Assembly (NCBI GenBank): GCA_900110635.1
Contig: FOEK01000005.1
Span: forward strand, 62,001-126,000
Length of the DNA: 64,000 nt
Reading direction: 5' to 3'
DNA from: Lachnospiraceae bacterium NE2001
GTDB taxonomy: Bacteria > Bacillota > Clostridia > Lachnospirales > Lachnospiraceae
Of this stretch, positions 42,825 through 48,870 are shown one piece after another. Position 1 is the stretch's first letter. The number at the start of each line of letters is the position of its first letter. A program made the translations under genes and the position numbers. The notes under the pieces were generated by a model. That model searched no databases. It saw only the letters and a program-made list of their open reading frames with translations, and had not been told where the DNA came from.

Positions 42825-42859
42825 AGGAAAAGTGCTGTTGAGAAACAACACAACTTGAT

Positions 42860-42932
42860 GGGGTCTTAGCTCAGCTGGGAGAGCATCTGCCTTACAAGCA
42901 GAGGGTCACAGGTTCGAGCCCTGTAGGCCCCA
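42860..42932 (+). tRNA. tRNA-Val (TAC)
   Basis: 73-nt cloverleaf: acceptor GGGGTCT/AGGCCCC, anticodon loop CTTACAA, T loop TTCGAGC. No CCA is encoded. Confidence 0.97.
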
Positions 42933-42937
42933 TATAT

Positions 42938-43011
42938 GGCGGGATAGCTCAGCTGGCTAGAGCATACGGTTCATACCCGTAGTGTCGAGGGTTCAAGTCC
43001 CCCTCCCGCTA
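42938..43011 (+). tRNA. tRNA-Met (CAT), elongator type
   Basis: 74-nt cloverleaf: acceptor GGCGGGA/TCCCGCT, anticodon loop TTCATAC. The anticodon stem TACGG/CCGTA lacks the three G-C pairs of initiator tRNA, so elongator is likely. A lysidine-modified Ile tRNA is the alternative. One A-C mismatch appears in the T stem. No encoded CCA. Confidence 0.93.
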
Positions 43012-43036
43012 CTTAAATATATTTAACACATCTTAA

Positions 43037-43111
43037 CGGGGTGTGGCTCAGCTTGGCTAGAGCGCTTGATTTGGGATCAAGAGGTCGCAGGTTCGAATCC
43101 TGTCACCCCGA
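43037..43111 (+). tRNA. tRNA-Pro (TGG)
   Basis: 75-nt cloverleaf: acceptor CGGGGTG/CACCCCG, anticodon loop TTTGGGA, T arm GCAGG/CCTGT. No encoded CCA. Confidence 0.96.
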
Positions 43112-43126
43112 CTCGGTTGTTGATAC

Positions 43127-43155
43127 TTGACAACCATTTCAAAATTATATATTAT
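43127..43155 (+). promoter_or_regulatory. second promoter inside the tRNA cluster
   Basis: TTGACA (43127-43132), 17-nt spacer, TATTAT (43150-43155), about 52 nt before tRNA-Gly. The -35 lies in the 3' arm of a hairpin (GGTTGT at 43115-43120 with ACAACC at 43130-43135), so the first three tRNAs may end there and the last six may be transcribed separately. Confidence 0.7.
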
Positions 43156-43206
43156 TTAGTAGCTGTAAGTCGCAGTTATTAGACATAACGATTGTTATGA
43201 GATTAT

Positions 43207-43277
43207 GCGGGTGTAGTTCAGTGGTAGAACACCAGCCTTCCAAGCTGGATATGTGGGTTCGATTCCCATCACCCGCT
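43207..43277 (+). tRNA. tRNA-Gly (TCC)
   Basis: 71-nt cloverleaf: acceptor GCGGGTG/CACCCGC, anticodon loop CTTCCAA, T arm GTGGG/CCCAT. No encoded CCA. Confidence 0.96.
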
Positions 43278-43307
43278 TTTAGACTGTCTAATAGATGGTC
43301 TTGAAAT

Positions 43308-43381
<74 letters not shown>

Positions 43382-43395
43382 TTTTATTTATTTAT

Positions 43396-43470
43396 GGTGG
43401 GTATGGCGCAGTTGGCTAGCGCGCCAGATTGTGGCTCTGGAGGCCGAGGGTTCAAGTCCCTCTACCCACC
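43396..43470 (+). tRNA. tRNA-His (GTG)
   Basis: 75 nt including the His-specific extra G at position -1 paired with C73. Anticodon loop ATTGTGG; acceptor GTGGGTA/TACCCAC. Confidence 0.96.
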
Positions 43471-43528
43471 CTTTTTTTTATAAATAGTATTTTTTGGCTG
43501 GATACACAGCGATATGCAGAAAATACAT

Positions 43529-43600
43529 TGGGCTATCGCCAAGTGGTAAGGCACAGCACTTTGACTGCTGCATTCGTTGGTTCGAATCCAACTAGCCCAG
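43529..43600 (+). tRNA. tRNA-Gln (TTG)
   Basis: 72-nt cloverleaf: acceptor TGGGCTA/TAGCCCA, anticodon loop CTTTGAC, T loop TTCGAAT. Confidence 0.96.
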
Positions 43601-43614
43601 ATTTTATTATTTTT

Positions 43615-43687
43615 GTGCCACTAGCTCAGTCGGTAGAGCACTTGACTTTTAATCAAGTTGTCGGGGGTTCGATTCCCCCGTGGCACA
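43615..43687 (+). tRNA. tRNA-Lys (TTT)
   Basis: 73-nt cloverleaf: acceptor GTGCCAC/GTGGCAC, anticodon loop CTTTTAA, T arm GGGGG/CCCCC. It lies 14 nt after tRNA-Gln. Confidence 0.97.
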
Positions 43688-43720
43688 CAAGTATGCATCT
43701 GTTGATGCAGGTATAAAAAA

Positions 43721-43802
43721 GCGGATATGGCGGAATTGGCAGACGCGCTAGATTTAGGTTCTAGTGGGGAATCCCGTGCAGGTTCAACTCCTGTTATCCG
43801 CA
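43721..43802 (+). tRNA. tRNA-Leu (TAG)
   Basis: 82 nt with the long variable arm of class II tRNAs. Acceptor GCGGATA/TATCCGC, anticodon loop TTTAGGT. Last tRNA of the cluster; a terminator follows. Confidence 0.95.
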
Positions 43803-43812
43803 CACGAATGTA

Positions 43813-44910: not shown

Positions 44911-44941
44911 GTCTGGTGCGCTCCGGTGCACCAGACTTTTT
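44911..44941 (+). terminator. terminator between the pilin gene and potA
   Basis: GTCTGGTGC (44911-44919) pairs with GCACCAGAC (44928-44936), followed by five T. It ends only about 17 nt before the potA start codon and I see no promoter between, so it may also act as an attenuator of the pot operon. Confidence 0.9.
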
Positions 44942-44957
44942 GTTTTGGAGAAATAAG

Positions 44958-46016
44958 ATGAGTGAATTAGAAAAGAAAGTCCCCCTTATAGAACTTAAAG
45001 GCCTCACAAAAAACTTTGAGGATCAGCAGGTTCTGAAGGGTATTGATTTAACGATATATGAGAATGAGTTTTTGACTCTGCTTGGTCCGTCTGGTTGTGG
45101 AAAGACAACAACTCTTAGGATACTGGCTGGTTTTGAGGAACCTTCAGGTGGAGAGGTTCTCTTTAATGGAATAGATATAACGAAGGTTCCGGCATATAAG
45201 AGAGAGGTAAATACTATCTTTCAGAAGTATGCACTTTTTCCGTTTTTAAATGTTTATGACAATGTTGCATTTGGCCTTAAGATAAAAAAGATGGAGAAAT
45301 CTGTCATTGATCAAAAGGTTACAAATATGCTTAAACTTATTGGACTTGAGGAGTTCGCGAAGAGAGATGTTTCCAGTCTTTCTGGTGGACAGCAGCAGCG
45401 TGTAGCGATAGCACGTGCACTTGTAAATGAACCTAAGGTTCTGCTTCTTGATGAGCCTCTTGGAGCTCTTGATGCAAAGCTGCGTAAAGGAATGCAGGCT
45501 GAGCTTAAGAGAATCCAGAAGGAAGTAGGTATTACATTTATCTTTGTAACTCACGATCAGGAAGAGGCACTGTCAATGTCTGACACCGTGGTTGTAATGA
45601 ATGAAGGAATCATTCAGCAGGTTGGAACTCCTGAGGATATATATAATGAGCCGGAAAACCGTTTTGTTGCCGACTTTATTGGTGAGTCAAATATCATCGA
45701 GGCTGTAATGAAGAAGGATCTTCTTGTTTCATTTGATGGTGAAGATTTTGTCTGCGTAGATAAAGGATTTAAGCTAAATGAAAACGTTGAGGTTGTTATT
45801 CGACCGGAGGATATAGATATAGTGAAGCCTAAAGAGGCTAAGGTAAAAGGTGTTGTGAAGTCAATCATATTTAAGGGCGTACATCATGAAATTGTTGTTG
45901 AGACTGAACATAGAGATTATCTGATACATACAACGGACTATTATGAACCGGGTCTAAAGGTTGGTCTTACATTTGGACCAGATGAAATACACGTTATGTA
46001 TCCAATGGAATGGTAG
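44958..46016 (+). CDS. potA: spermidine/putrescine ABC transporter ATP-binding protein PotA
   Basis: ATPase of a polyamine importer. Seen: 352 residues. Walker A is GPSGCGKTT (43-51), the ABC signature [15 protein letters not shown], Walker [14 protein letters not shown] and the switch His in [12 protein letters not shown]-terminal TOBE-type domain follows (about 240-352) with [11 protein letters not shown]. The ATG at 44958 matches the usual PotA start and has TTGGAG upstream; the longer ORF would read through the terminator hairpin. The genes potB and potCD follow after an unusual 178-nt hairpin element. Confidence 0.95.
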
Positions 46017-46017
46017 C

Positions 46018-46195
46018 CTTGCAAAATTCAATAAAAAACTTATAGTTTCGAGCTTGCTTGCAAGCGGAGAAACTAGAAAGTTTTTTATTGATGCATCGGA
46101 GATGCTACTTCGAAGGTATGAGGAAAGTGTCTGCGAAGCAGACGATAGAGCACGAAGTGCGGACTTTCCGAATATCCTTTGAAGTACTTTGCAAG
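46018..46195 (+). repeat. 178-nt nested inverted-repeat element between potA and potB
   Basis: Seen, outside in: terminal inverted repeat CTTGCAAA (46018-46025) / TTTGCAAG (46188-46195). Branch 1: a 13-bp stem, 46029-46041 with 46078-46090, extended by AGTTTC/GAAACT and capped by GCTTG-CTTG-CAAGC. Branch 2: GCATC-GGA-GATGC (46093-46105). Branch 3: ACTTCGAAGG/CCTTTGAAGT (46107-46116, 46176-46185) then GGAAAGT/ACTTTCC. Branch 3 ends in two small hairpins, GTCTGC-GAA-GCAGAC (46129-46143) and GCAC-GAA-GTGC (46150-46160). The GCGAAGC core is a known ultra-stable DNA mini-hairpin. No credible ORF lies inside. It looks like a miniature repeat element or a structured RNA. Confidence 0.85.
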
Positions 46196-46217
46196 AAAAT
46201 ATAATGAGGAAATAAAA

Positions 46218-47054
46218 ATGAAACACTTTAACAAGCTTGTCCGTCCATATCTTATATGGTCGATACTTATTGTGCTGGTTCCTCTGTTGATGATAATCCT
46301 GTATTCGATAACAACAGGCGGAAACACACTTGTAAATATAAGGTTTACTCTTGAAAACTTTAAAAAAATAGGAGAGCCTATCTATCTTGATGTATTAAAG
46401 AAGTCTTTTTATCTGGGCTTTATTTCTGTCCTTTTTTGTCTTGTGATCGGCTATATTCTGGCGTATTTTATAACAAGATTTAAGGATTCTACTCAGGATA
46501 TTCTGATACTTCTTGTTACGATCCCTATGTGGATCAATACGCTTCTTCGTACCTATGCATGGATCAGCCTGCTTTCTGACAATGGCGTTATTAATAGCTT
46601 CCTTCAGCTTTTTGGGCTTACGCCAAAGACATTTATGTATACAGATTTTGCGGTGGTGATAGGTCTGATAAGCGATATTCTTCCGTTTATGGTTATTCCT
46701 ATTCATACATCAATAAGAAAGATTGATCCATCACTGATAGAAGCATCTCAGGATCTTGGGGCAAATACATTTCAGACTTTTACACATGTGATCCTTAAGA
46801 TGTCTATTCCTGGTGTTATAAATGGAGTGATGATGACATTTCTCCTTTCTATATCTACGTTCGTTATACCAAAGCTGCTAGGCGGTGGACAGTATATGCT
46901 GATTGGAAATCTTATTGAGAATCAGTTTATCTCGGTTGGTAACTGGAACTTTGGTTCTGCTATATCGATCATTCTTACCGTGATAATCCTTATTGGCCTT
47001 TCGGTTATGAAGAAGTTTGACCGTGAGGAGAAGGAGGAACGCGATGAGAGATAA
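46218..47054 (+). CDS. potB: spermidine/putrescine ABC transporter permease PotB
   Basis: Seen: 278 residues with six membrane segments and the permease EAA-loop motif EASQDLGANTFQTFTHVILK (about 175-195) that docks on PotA. The ATG at 46218 follows TGAGGAAA; an in-frame start 39 nt upstream falls in the hairpin element and lacks a ribosome binding site. Its end overlaps the start of potCD by 11 nt, indicating coupled translation of the two permease partners. Confidence 0.94.
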   Translation: MKHFNKLVRPYLIWSILIVLVPLLMIILYSITTGGNTLVNIRFTLENFKKIGEPIYLDVLKKSFYLGFISVLFCLVIGYILAYFITRFKDSTQDILILLVTIPMWINTLLRTYAWISLLSDNGVINSFLQLFGLTPKTFMYTDFAVVIGLISDILPFMVIPIHTSIRKIDPSLIEASQDLGANTFQTFTHVILKMSIPGVINGVMMTFLLSISTFVIPKLLGGGQYMLIGNLIENQFISVGNWNFGSAISIILTVIILIGLSVMKKFDREEKEERDER

Positions 47055-48870
47055 GAAAAGCAGCAGAGTAGTGTACTTAATATATATAACACTCCTCTTT
47101 ATATTCTTTTACCTTCCTATTGTTGTTATGATGGTGTTCTCATTTAACTCGTCGAAGAGTCTTACAAATATGACGGGATTTTCTCTGAGATGGTATTCTA
47201 GGCTTATATCTGACGGTTCTATAATGAGGGCTGTATATGTATCCCTTACGATAGCCATATTTGCCACCATTATTTCTGTGATACTTGGTACTATTACAGC
47301 TATTGGCCTTTCTAAATCCAGAAGGGTTATGAAGGAAACTATATTAAATATAAATAATCTCCCAATAATGAATCCGGATATTGTTACGGCTATAGGTCTT
47401 ATGATCTTGTTTTCTTCTGCCATGATAGCAAAGGGATATATGACCATGCTTCTGGCTCATATAGCATTTTGTACGCCTTATGTTATTACTTCGGTATATC
47501 CAAAGGTGAGACAGCTTGATCCTTCTCTGGCTGATGCTGCTATGGATCTGGGAGCAACACCTTTTGAAGCTTTGACGAAGGTGATTATTCCGATGCTTAG
47601 AGATGGTATATATGCGGGTATTCTTCTTGCGTTTACCATGAGCTTTGATGATTTTGTAATTTCTTATTTTGTTACAGGAAATGGTGTAGAGAATATATCG
47701 ATTACAGTATATAATATGACAAAGCGTACAAATCCGACAATAAATGCTCTGTCAACTATTGTTATTCTCGTAATTGCTATTCTTCTTATAGTTTCCAGAT
47801 TGCTTCCGGCTATGCTAAAAGCGACTATGAAGAAGATAATGGCTGTTGCGCTTGCTCTCTTGATTGGTTTTACCACATTTGCTGGAATAAAAAGTAATGG
47901 CAGGACTCTTAGAATCTTTATATCTGGAGAGTATCTTGATCCTGAAATTGTTGAAGATTTTGAAAAGAAGTACGATTGCGATATTATCTTAGAAACATTT
48001 GATTCAAATGAATCAATGTACACAAAGCTTATGAGTGGCTCGGAGTATGATATACTAGTTACAAGTGACTATATGATAGAGAGACTTATCAAAGAAAAAG
48101 AACTTCAGCCTCTTAATTGGGATAATATTCCAAATAAAGACAGCCTGGACCCGGCGAATATGGGGTATCCATTTGATCCGGATAATACATATTCCGTACC
48201 GTACTTCGTTGGAACGGTTGGCATATTGTATGACACAAATGTTGTGGATGAGGCGGACCTTGAAGAAGGCTGGGAACTGCTTCGTAATCCGAAATATGCT
48301 GGCGATATCTATATGTATGATTCGGAACGAGACAGCTTTATGATAGCTCTTAAATCTCTTGGTTATTCTATGAATACCACGGATAAAGAAGAGATAAAGG
48401 AAGCTTATGACTGGCTTATAGATCAGCGCGAAACAATGGATGTTGTATATGTTGGCGATGATGTAATGGACAATATGATATCTGGAAATAAGAGCATCGC
48501 TGTTGTATATTCTGGTGATGGAGCCTATATAATGGCTGAAAATGAGGATCTTGACTATTTTGATCCTGAAGAAGGTACAAACGAGTGGTGCGATGCTATG
48601 GTTATGACCAAGGATTGTCTGGATACTGAGCTGGCTGAAGAGTTTATGAATTATATGCTGGAATATGATGTGGTTTATCAGAATTCTATCTTTGTAGGCT
48701 ATACTACACCAGTTGCTGAGGTAAGAGATGATTTTAAGGTGGAAGAGTATGATGGAATAGAGTCGTATACACCTGTTTTTGGTGCTCCTAATAATGAGAT
48801 ATTCAGATATCAGGATGAGGAACTTAGAGCTTATTATTCGGATCTGTGGACCAAGGTAAAAGCGTATTAA
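47044..48870 (+). CDS. potC: PotC-PotD fusion: polyamine permease joined to the substrate-binding protein
   Basis: Seen: one uninterrupted frame of 608 residues. Residues 1-260 are a PotC permease with six membrane segments and EAA motif DAAMDLGATPFEALTK. Residues 262-283 (MKKIMAVALALLIGFTTFAG) look like an old signal peptide, now an extra membrane anchor. Residues 288-608 are a PotD-type binding protein (SGEYLDPEIVEDFEKK, YSVPYFVGTVGILYD, NYMLEYDVVYQNSIFVGYTT). The binding domain would be tethered outside the cell, with no separate lipoprotein needed. Similar permease-binding protein fusions are known for other ABC importers such as OpuA-type. The substrate may be spermidine or putrescine; specificity cannot be read. 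Confidence 0.93.
   Translation: MRDKKSSRVVYLIYITLLFIFFYLPIVVMMVFSFNSSKSLTNMTGFSLRWYSRLISDGSIMRAVYVSLTIAIFATIISVILGTITAIGLSKSRRVMKETILNINNLPIMNPDIVTAIGLMILFSSAMIAKGYMTMLLAHIAFCTPYVITSVYPKVRQLDPSLADAAMDLGATPFEALTKVIIPMLRDGIYAGILLAFTMSFDDFVISYFVTGNGVENISITVYNMTKRTNPTINALSTIVILVIAILLIVSRLLPAMLKATMKKIMAVALALLIGFTTFAGIKSNGRTLRIFISGEYLDPEIVEDFEKKYDCDIILETFDSNESMYTKLMSGSEYDILVTSDYMIERLIKEKELQPLNWDNIPNKDSLDPANMGYPFDPDNTYSVPYFVGTVGILYDTNVVDEADLEEGWELLRNPKYAGDIYMYDSERDSFMIALKSLGYSMNTTDKEEIKEAYDWLIDQRETMDVVYVGDDVMDNMISGNKSIAVVYSGDGAYIMAENEDLDYFDPEEGTNEWCDAMVMTKDCLDTELAEEFMNYMLEYDVVYQNSIFVGYTTPVAEVRDDFKVEEYDGIESYTPVFGAPNNEIFRYQDEELRAYYSDLWTKVKAY

Follow-up and report, generated by a model that had tools for sequence, protein, structure and literature searches.

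A dispersed RNA fold related to the orphan Clostridiales-1 RNA at the potA-potB junction of Lachnospiraceae bacterium NE2001, a candidate intercistronic protector of the potA mRNA 3' end

Intercistronic palindromes such as the REP sequences and the puf intercistronic hairpin stabilise the mRNA upstream of them, although the structure described here differs from both in sequence and fold and no link to a RAYT was found for it. In Clostridium cellulolyticum, a stem-loop accompanies a 3' processing site of the F-ATPase c-subunit gene, the transcript of which is three to five times as abundant as those of the neighboring genes, and the energy of stem-loops correlates with abundance in this organism (PMC4423207). 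Operons of this type, termed SRPS, are predicted by SLOFE also for ATP synthases and ABC transporters (PMC8219983), and stem-loops past genes encoding binding proteins can be leaky terminators (PMC9045158). Another class of sequence, the MITEs, comprises short, geneless units with terminal inverted repeats, as reviewed in PMC10969869, whose text contains none of the strings "clostridi", "IS1182" and "stoichiometry". The orphan motif Clostridiales-1 RNA (RF01699) was obtained from Clostridiales and the human gut by Weinberg et al. (2010; PMC2864571), whose score "y n n" denotes a probable RNA that is probably neither cis-regulatory nor a switch. The word "mobile" is absent from the main text of that study, none of the papers listed for Clostridiales-1 RNA or RF01699 deals in its title or abstract opening with a function or mobility of this RNA, and Rfam types the family as "Gene; sRNA".

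We analyzed a window of 64,000 nucleotides from Lachnospiraceae bacterium NE2001 (contig FOEK01000005.1, positions 62,001 to 126,000), in which a 178-nt element lies between potA and potB, starting 1 nt past the potA stop codon (TAG, 46014-46016) and leaving 22 nt between its end and the ATG of potB (Table 1). The element is predicted to form a four-way junction in which an outer stem closes three arms. The RNA folding energy of the interval 46010-46220 amounts to -78.9 kcal/mol, against -42.7 +/- 3.7 kcal/mol for 200 shuffles, none of which was as low (z = -9.78), and folding of 46018-46195 as DNA gives a z of -10.49. The initial annotation had described a branched palindromic element of this very extent, with GAA-capped tips and free of open reading frames, and its description is borne out: both capped hairpins are present, no sense-strand gene lies within 46018-46195, and a TTG-started extension of potB and two antisense ORFs (80 and 90 aa) overlap the element mechanically. 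The form of arm 1 is common to copies at potA-potB and at two ATPase junctions considered below, ntpK-ntpE and atpE-atpF, while arm 3 resembles the middle arm of the RF01699 copies of the genus. Nine tRNA genes, all on the forward strand, are clustered at 42859-43803 of the window.

Table 1. Features at and around the potA-potB junction, in window positions.
Feature	Position	Strand	Basis or remark
Hairpin and T-tract resembling an intrinsic terminator, upstream of potA	44911-44946	+	consensus match only
potA, ABC transporter ATPase (PF00005, TOBE_2)	44958-46016	+	
Whole structured element, window-type Clostridiales-1 RNA relative	46018-46195	+	fold z, RF01699 match, model R1
Outer stem, 5' side, CTTGCAAA	46018-46025	+	fold; double changes in all 7 modelled pairs, 97.1% of cells paired
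Arm 1, long hairpin with 2x3 internal loop, 5-bp tip helix and TGCTTGCA-type tip	46028-46091	+	fold and covariation
Arm 2, short hairpin with three-base loop	46093-46105	+	fold and covariation
Arm 3, forked, with facing GA/GA at 46120-46121 / 46170-46171	46106-46186	+	fold and covariation
44-nt distal core of arm 3	46124-46167	+	91-100% identity at six further loci in NE2001
Hairpin 3a, GAA-capped, CTGCGAAGCAG core	46129-46143	+	fold; helix 8 in the alignment, 100% of cells paired
Hairpin 3b, GAA-capped, GCACGAAGTGC	46150-46160	+	fold; helix 9 in the alignment, 100% of cells paired
Outer stem, 3' side, TTTGCAAG	46188-46195	+	fold and covariation
potB, permease (PF00528)	46218-47054	+	
potC-potD fusion, 608 aa, permease (PF00528) and solute-binding protein (PF13416)	47044-48870	+	overlaps the end of potB

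Initially the element was thought to match no named family, a view that no longer holds, since its best Rfam match, at 46023-46176, is RF01699 (40.5 bits, E = 1.3e-7). The element is a divergent relative of this orphan RNA, a related variant whose own score falls short of the gathering cut-off of 48 bits. It shares with RF01699 the outer stem, an arm 1 with a CUUGC tip and an arm with facing GA/GA flanked by GGAAA/UUUCC, and differs from it by the extra short arm 2, by the forking of arm 3 and by the lack of the GGAUUGC arm, the first three of the four consensus arms being present in a rearranged form. The NE2001 genome also contains RF01699 copies above the cut-off, scoring 61.2 (L009), 58.8 (L006) and 49.1 bits (L005). 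Across the genus, a match at an E value of 0.01 is found in 50 of 61 genomes and one above the cut-off in 46 of 61, with up to 25 copies per genome; in a family-wide sample of 200 genomes, of which two belong to the genus, 109 match at an E value of 1e-4 and 87 above the cut-off, the copies per genome being lower bounds as no more than 13 candidates were scored in each.

As MAFFT did not align arm 1 properly across the divergent copies, a covariance model, R1, was adopted, which was built from four potA-potB copies including that of the window. In the NE2001 genome R1 finds eight window-type copies, the window copy among them, the weakest with an E value of 4e-10. Among the seven others, the outer stem TTCAG(C/T)AGGT and its matching partner recur in four, whereas each of the remaining three has a different stem. 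The tip of arm 3 is near-constant across the window-type copies of this genome, with the exception of L336. Over its distal 44 nt the arm is near-identical within the genome (L002-L007), the stems below it vary, and the tips at the potA-potB junctions of relatives differ. Gene conversion and a trans-acting reader are suggested as alternative causes of this uniformity.

An alignment of 20 copies was obtained with R1, consisting of eight from NE2001 (the window copy included), five from the potA-potB junctions of relatives, five from ntpK-ntpE and two from atpE-atpF. Paired cells make up 94.4% of 1308, and in 66 of the 68 pairs both partners have changed, with a covariation score of 0.858 against 0.216 +/- 0.013 for shuffled and 0.087-0.125 for slid controls, although the counts lean towards the model, to whose structure the alignment had been fitted. 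Single copies folded without the alignment mostly agree in architecture, the exceptions including L068, L270 and L281, in which the entire intergenic part is closed by other pairings. By these comparisons the fold is conserved and evidently under selection. A second copy and covariation, on which the initial annotation had made its reading depend, were thus both found. In the aligned pairs G-U combinations outnumber A-C by 34 to 5, so it seems to be one strand that counts. Of the elements flanked by co-oriented genes, 38 share the strand of the genes and seven have the opposite one (74 loci, heuristic ORF rules). Purely DNA-level upkeep of the palindromes was rejected on account of these two ratios, the first of which comes from the structure-fitted alignment, and of the conserved loops, even though the stems are almost purely Watson-Crick and G-U pairs are equally rare on both strands of 30 RF01699 copies of the genus (34 of 1907 and 31 of 1916 pairs), the pattern expected of a palindrome maintained purely at the DNA level. 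In an ordinary RNA, G-U would be expected to be far commoner than in those copies, and upkeep at the DNA level may contribute to the maintenance of the stems.

With terminal inverted repeats CTTGCAAA/TTTGCAAG and no sense gene, the window element has the general form of a MITE, and a sister subfamily displays further properties of this class. In two genomes, G029 and G056, near-identical copies start with TGACATAAG past unrelated flanks and many finish with GGTGTCAAAAGGTACTTTTGACACCCACATC; the 18-mer GATGTGGGTGTCAAAAGT occurs 33 and 41 times, respectively, when up to two mismatches are allowed, while the reversed control gives no occurrence. In G056 two inverted GATGTGGGTGTCAAAAGT copies flank a 1.87-kb element with a transposase ORF of 534 aa (PF13751, PF05598), whose nearest NCBIfam model is IS1182 (E = 1.8e-33, under the cut-off of that model), and hence this TGACAT subfamily shares its ends with an IS1182-like insertion sequence encoding a DDE transposase. 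Direct duplications of at least 5 nt border 12 of 16 distinct TGACAT-ended copies with both ends, from six genomes and including one 38-nt short form, whereas 2000 shuffled pairings gave 1.5 such copies on average and never more than 6. On this evidence the TGACAT subfamily moves in a MITE-like manner; as in the MITEs described in the review PMC10969869, it combines duplications with ends shared with an insertion sequence, but the family here differs from MITEs in an internal three-arm fold kept through heavy covariation.

The mobile subfamily has two main lengths, about 202 and 310 nt, the longer with an extra hairpin cluster nested in an arm. Such a cluster, of 108 nt and made of small hairpins, is found in five G029 copies (L155-L159), four of which have both ends and measure 309-310 nt, and the ntpK-ntpE copy of NE2001 (L009/L225) carries an insert similar to it. 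Reduced units also occur: the 38-nt form (L185) retains little beyond the two MITE ends, and a 106-nt unit of the NE2001 genome (L188) is a deletion derivative with the outer stem and arm 1 but without arm 3.

The proposal in the initial annotation of a non-autonomous mobile repeat thus stands for the sister subfamily, whereas no target duplication was seen by eye at the window copy and neither a partner insertion sequence nor duplications were found for its subfamily, which would be mobile judging from its scattered copies. An IS1182-like element of the NE2001 genome, interrupted by a stop, was rejected as partner because its ends do not match. The ends of the window subfamily, ACTGTTCAGCAGGT, were likewise rejected as ends of an insertion sequence: with up to two mismatches they match 52 times against 18 for the reversed form, and no pair at the spacing of an insertion sequence was seen by eye. 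The REP/RAYT route, also put forward initially, finds no support, as the only one of seven PF01797 matches in this genome to span the model (L125) is flanked by an unrelated repeat. The partner of the mobile form is a DDE transposase of the IS1182-like kind. This RAYT-like gene (L125:1459-2205, contig C41) has GTGCAGTGGGGACGGACCCCGCTGCAC-type palindromes on both sides and may possibly constitute with them a REP-like family of its own. The six remaining Y1-transposase fragments (L123, L124, L126-L129) all lie at contig ends and probably belong to an IS200-like element whose multiple copies interrupt the assembly; beyond a 12-nt match they have no similarity to the potA-potB element.

The mobility of the sister subfamily, with its target duplications and its ends common to the IS1182-like element, is compatible with a selfish non-autonomous repeat devoid of host function, which would survive where it is harmless, past stop codons and on the transcribed strand, and whose shared sites would be old inherited insertions. 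We regard this explanation as rather unlikely on the evidence of placement given below, although the distribution of the element at potA-potB also speaks in its favor.

At this junction 80 loci with PotB were found, 78 of them with potA upstream. Besides the window, an element is present in L047, L050, L063, L067, L068 and L078, always on the operon strand and cut short in L067, and the gaps of L057 and L066 are read as remnants. Three more distant relatives (L058, L074, L077) have a different branched palindromic repeat, CACCCACAAACGC...GCGTTTGTGC, doubled in L077, at this site, which seems to collect such elements; L120 has a tandem repeat and the remaining gaps are 0-84 nt long. Filled and empty junctions occur in sister species, with gaps of 12 nt in L045 against 241 nt in L050 and of 18 nt in L062 against 207 nt in L078, and near the window species, with 4 nt in L043 and 27 nt in L044 against 201 nt in the window. 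Since the element is absent in its nearest relatives, L043, L044 and L045, it is dispensable at this site there. On a tree of 39 loci the seven element-bearing ones require at least seven changes and no two filled loci are nearest sisters, a patchiness expected of a selfish repeat. The potA-potB copies share, however, arm-2 and arm-3 sequence that the paralogues of the NE2001 genome lack, and thus a single ancient insertion that was lost repeatedly may be a likelier history than seven separate ones. They keep one architecture while their stem sequences differ, which argues against a selfish repeat, and five of six folded singly agree, L068 closing differently and yet aligning to R1. The next junction of the operon, potB-potC, is overlapping or closed in all 36 resolved loci of the 39 examined (three unresolved).

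Both PotA and the c-ring subunits of ATPases are needed in excess of the other products of their operons. In the genus a structured insert, defined as a gap of at least 100 nt with an energy below -0.25 kcal/mol per nt, is found in V-type ATPase operons directly past the c-ring gene, at ntpK-ntpE (15/32), and at neither flanking junction (ntpI-ntpK 0/31, ntpE-ntpC 0/32). Likewise, F-type operons have it at atpE-atpF (14/55) and neither at atpB-atpE (0/54) nor between atpF and the following gene (0/79, loci that include the 55 of atpE-atpF). Fisher tests give p values of 5e-9 and 5e-5 for the V-type and F-type, respectively, which ignore shared ancestry and concern an enrichment noticed in the placement outputs and then tested, i.e. 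post hoc. The gaps at atpB-atpE reach 160 nt, many being near 50, and seven are of at least 100 nt, none of which passes the fold threshold; these gaps are comparable in size to the empty ones at atpE-atpF, and a selfish repeat settling wherever it is harmless would not be expected to avoid them.

When 20 of the 29 first-round insert loci were run against Rfam, 14 matched RF01699, 13 of them above the cut-off, once per locus and at the junction past the c gene only. The six others (L269, L270, L271, L281, L291, L323) look window-type, and R1 finds L271 (E = 4e-14), L269 (3e-10) and L270 (3e-4) while missing L281, L291 and L323. At ntpK-ntpE ten inserts are of the RF01699 type and five of the window type, in different parts of the tree, and therefore this site has probably been occupied more than once; atpE-atpF divides into eight and six, with both element types present. 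Of 80 F-type loci, 55 (from 55 genomes) have the c-b junction, three are unresolved and 22 (L247-L268) form a second F-type operon, in which RF01699 scores above the cut-off directly past the c gene in two (L260, L261); three of the 22 pass the gap and energy rule, the third (L268) having no element. The c subunit of this second operon is a different one, ending in ETTGLYGLVV...LLLMFVKPFD (read in 21 genomes, the upstream gene of L265 being misread). The use of c-ring genes of V-type and two F-type operons by two element types is a further argument against a selfish repeat, which, on the other hand, would agree with the six presence changes that parsimony requires at ntpK-ntpE (eight when element type is counted; L233, L234 and L328 are read as three further remnants) and with the absence of the element from this junction in other genera. 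There, none of 28 resolved loci, out of 29 taken from 50 genomes with a match, has it, although several of these genomes contain many RF01699 copies, and this counts against a family-wide rule.

Placement past other genes is varied. In G056 a copy lies between a putative livF (ABC ATPase) and livH (permease), an arrangement like that of potA-potB, and one copy of the NE2001 genome is located between two ABC-transporter-like genes, all named by reading. Many copies, however, follow genes without an obvious need for excess product, such as gatB, the fumarase gene and purD, according to their translations. A stable structure directly past a gene whose product is needed in excess, as in SRPS operons including that of the F-ATPase c subunit (PMC4423207, PMC8219983), is found at potA-potB and, within the family, at ntpK-ntpE and atpE-atpF. 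In contrast to those SRPS stem-loops that lie near mapped processing sites, which range from -6.6 to -31.8 kcal/mol (PMC4423207), the inserts described here belong to a dispersed repeat family, are known from sequence alone and show much larger gaps and energies (143-323 nt and -62 to -153 kcal/mol at the ATPase junctions, with one partial copy at -49).

This placement suggests that the element may help to set a protein ratio from one shared message. We hypothesize, with about as much reason for as against, that the dispersed fold is kept as an intercistronic protector of mRNA 3' ends which raises the upstream gene, here potA. The interval would be one locally retained copy of the Clostridiales-1-related family, giving the pot mRNA a very stable branched structure directly past the potA stop codon; after cleavage or 3'-end decay downstream, the element would block 3'-to-5' exonucleases, and the potA segment would outlive potB-potCD, so that PotA, of which each transporter takes two, would be made in greater amount than PotB and PotCD, of which it takes one each. 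As the transporter joins a PotA dimer to single copies of PotB and PotC, more potA RNA would make sense. We infer the protection of the 3' end, the direction in which it works and any advantage for the cell. Several observations stand against a protector: the motif was scored as "probably not" cis-regulatory (PMC2864571), and the element is missing from the junctions of L043, L044 and L045, from ntpK-ntpE in all 28 resolved loci of other genera and from all but 2 of the 22 second F-type operons. The almost purely Watson-Crick stems, and the many copies past genes without evident stoichiometric demand, also count against it.

Three further explanations concern the transcript itself. An internal leaky transcription terminator, in which arm 1, with its U-rich 3' side, would release part of the polymerases past potA, is quite unlikely. 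In cellulolytic Clostridia internal terminators, some with paired U-tracts, do set the ratios of ABC importers (PMC9045158), and arm 1 of the window copy has a paired GTTTTTT tract; nevertheless, many relatives lack such U-richness in arm 1, as judged by eye, and a scan of 46018-46195 called no terminator-like site, i.e. a G+C-rich hairpin followed by a T-run, for which reason 3'-end protection is favored. Very unlikely, in our view, is a processing site at which RNase III, RNase Y or another endonuclease would cut the element and uncouple potA from potB with no net stabilization or with faster decay. Correia and ERIC repeats within mRNAs are cut or alter decay (reviewed in PMC10969869) and each copy of the potA-potB and NE2001 set offers 61-79 pairs, but such a site would not predict the placement past c-ring genes, and the loops and internal loops are conserved beyond what a plain duplex requires. 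Least credible is a trans-acting small RNA excised from the mRNA and acting elsewhere: the near-identical arm-3 tip within a genome whose stems differ, the Rfam label "sRNA" and the scoring of the motif as "probably" RNA and "probably not" cis-regulatory (PMC2864571) would agree with it, whereas no unpaired conserved stretch long enough for target pairing was seen by eye, and the orientation and the position past stop codons fit a role in cis.

Returning to 3'-end protection, the mobile-repeat and stoichiometry-device readings, which the initial annotation had offered as alternatives, each have support and taken together fit the observations best, the effect on stoichiometry being putative; we consider such a role plausible and the chances for and against it evenly balanced. 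A wider proposal, which we advance tentatively, is that a mobile family of RNA folds serves as a plug-in device of operons, spreading as MITEs do, with copies kept after genes for high-stoichiometry subunits (c-ring proteolipids, ABC ATPases), their stems rewritten pair by pair and their arm-3 tips read by a genome-specific protein or RNase, which would explain why these tips are uniform within a genome.

With 3'-end protection an orphan Rfam RNA would gain a concrete and testable role, and part of its family is mobile. The filled and empty sister species at potA-potB constitute a natural experiment. If the stoichiometry reading is true, it would join the literature on MITE spread with that on SRPS, as unequal output of an operon would be gained by inserting a prefabricated 3'-protecting structure past the gene whose product is needed in excess; and if the plug-in device reading is also true, the subunit ratios of operons would evolve through the transposition of cis elements that come ready-made.
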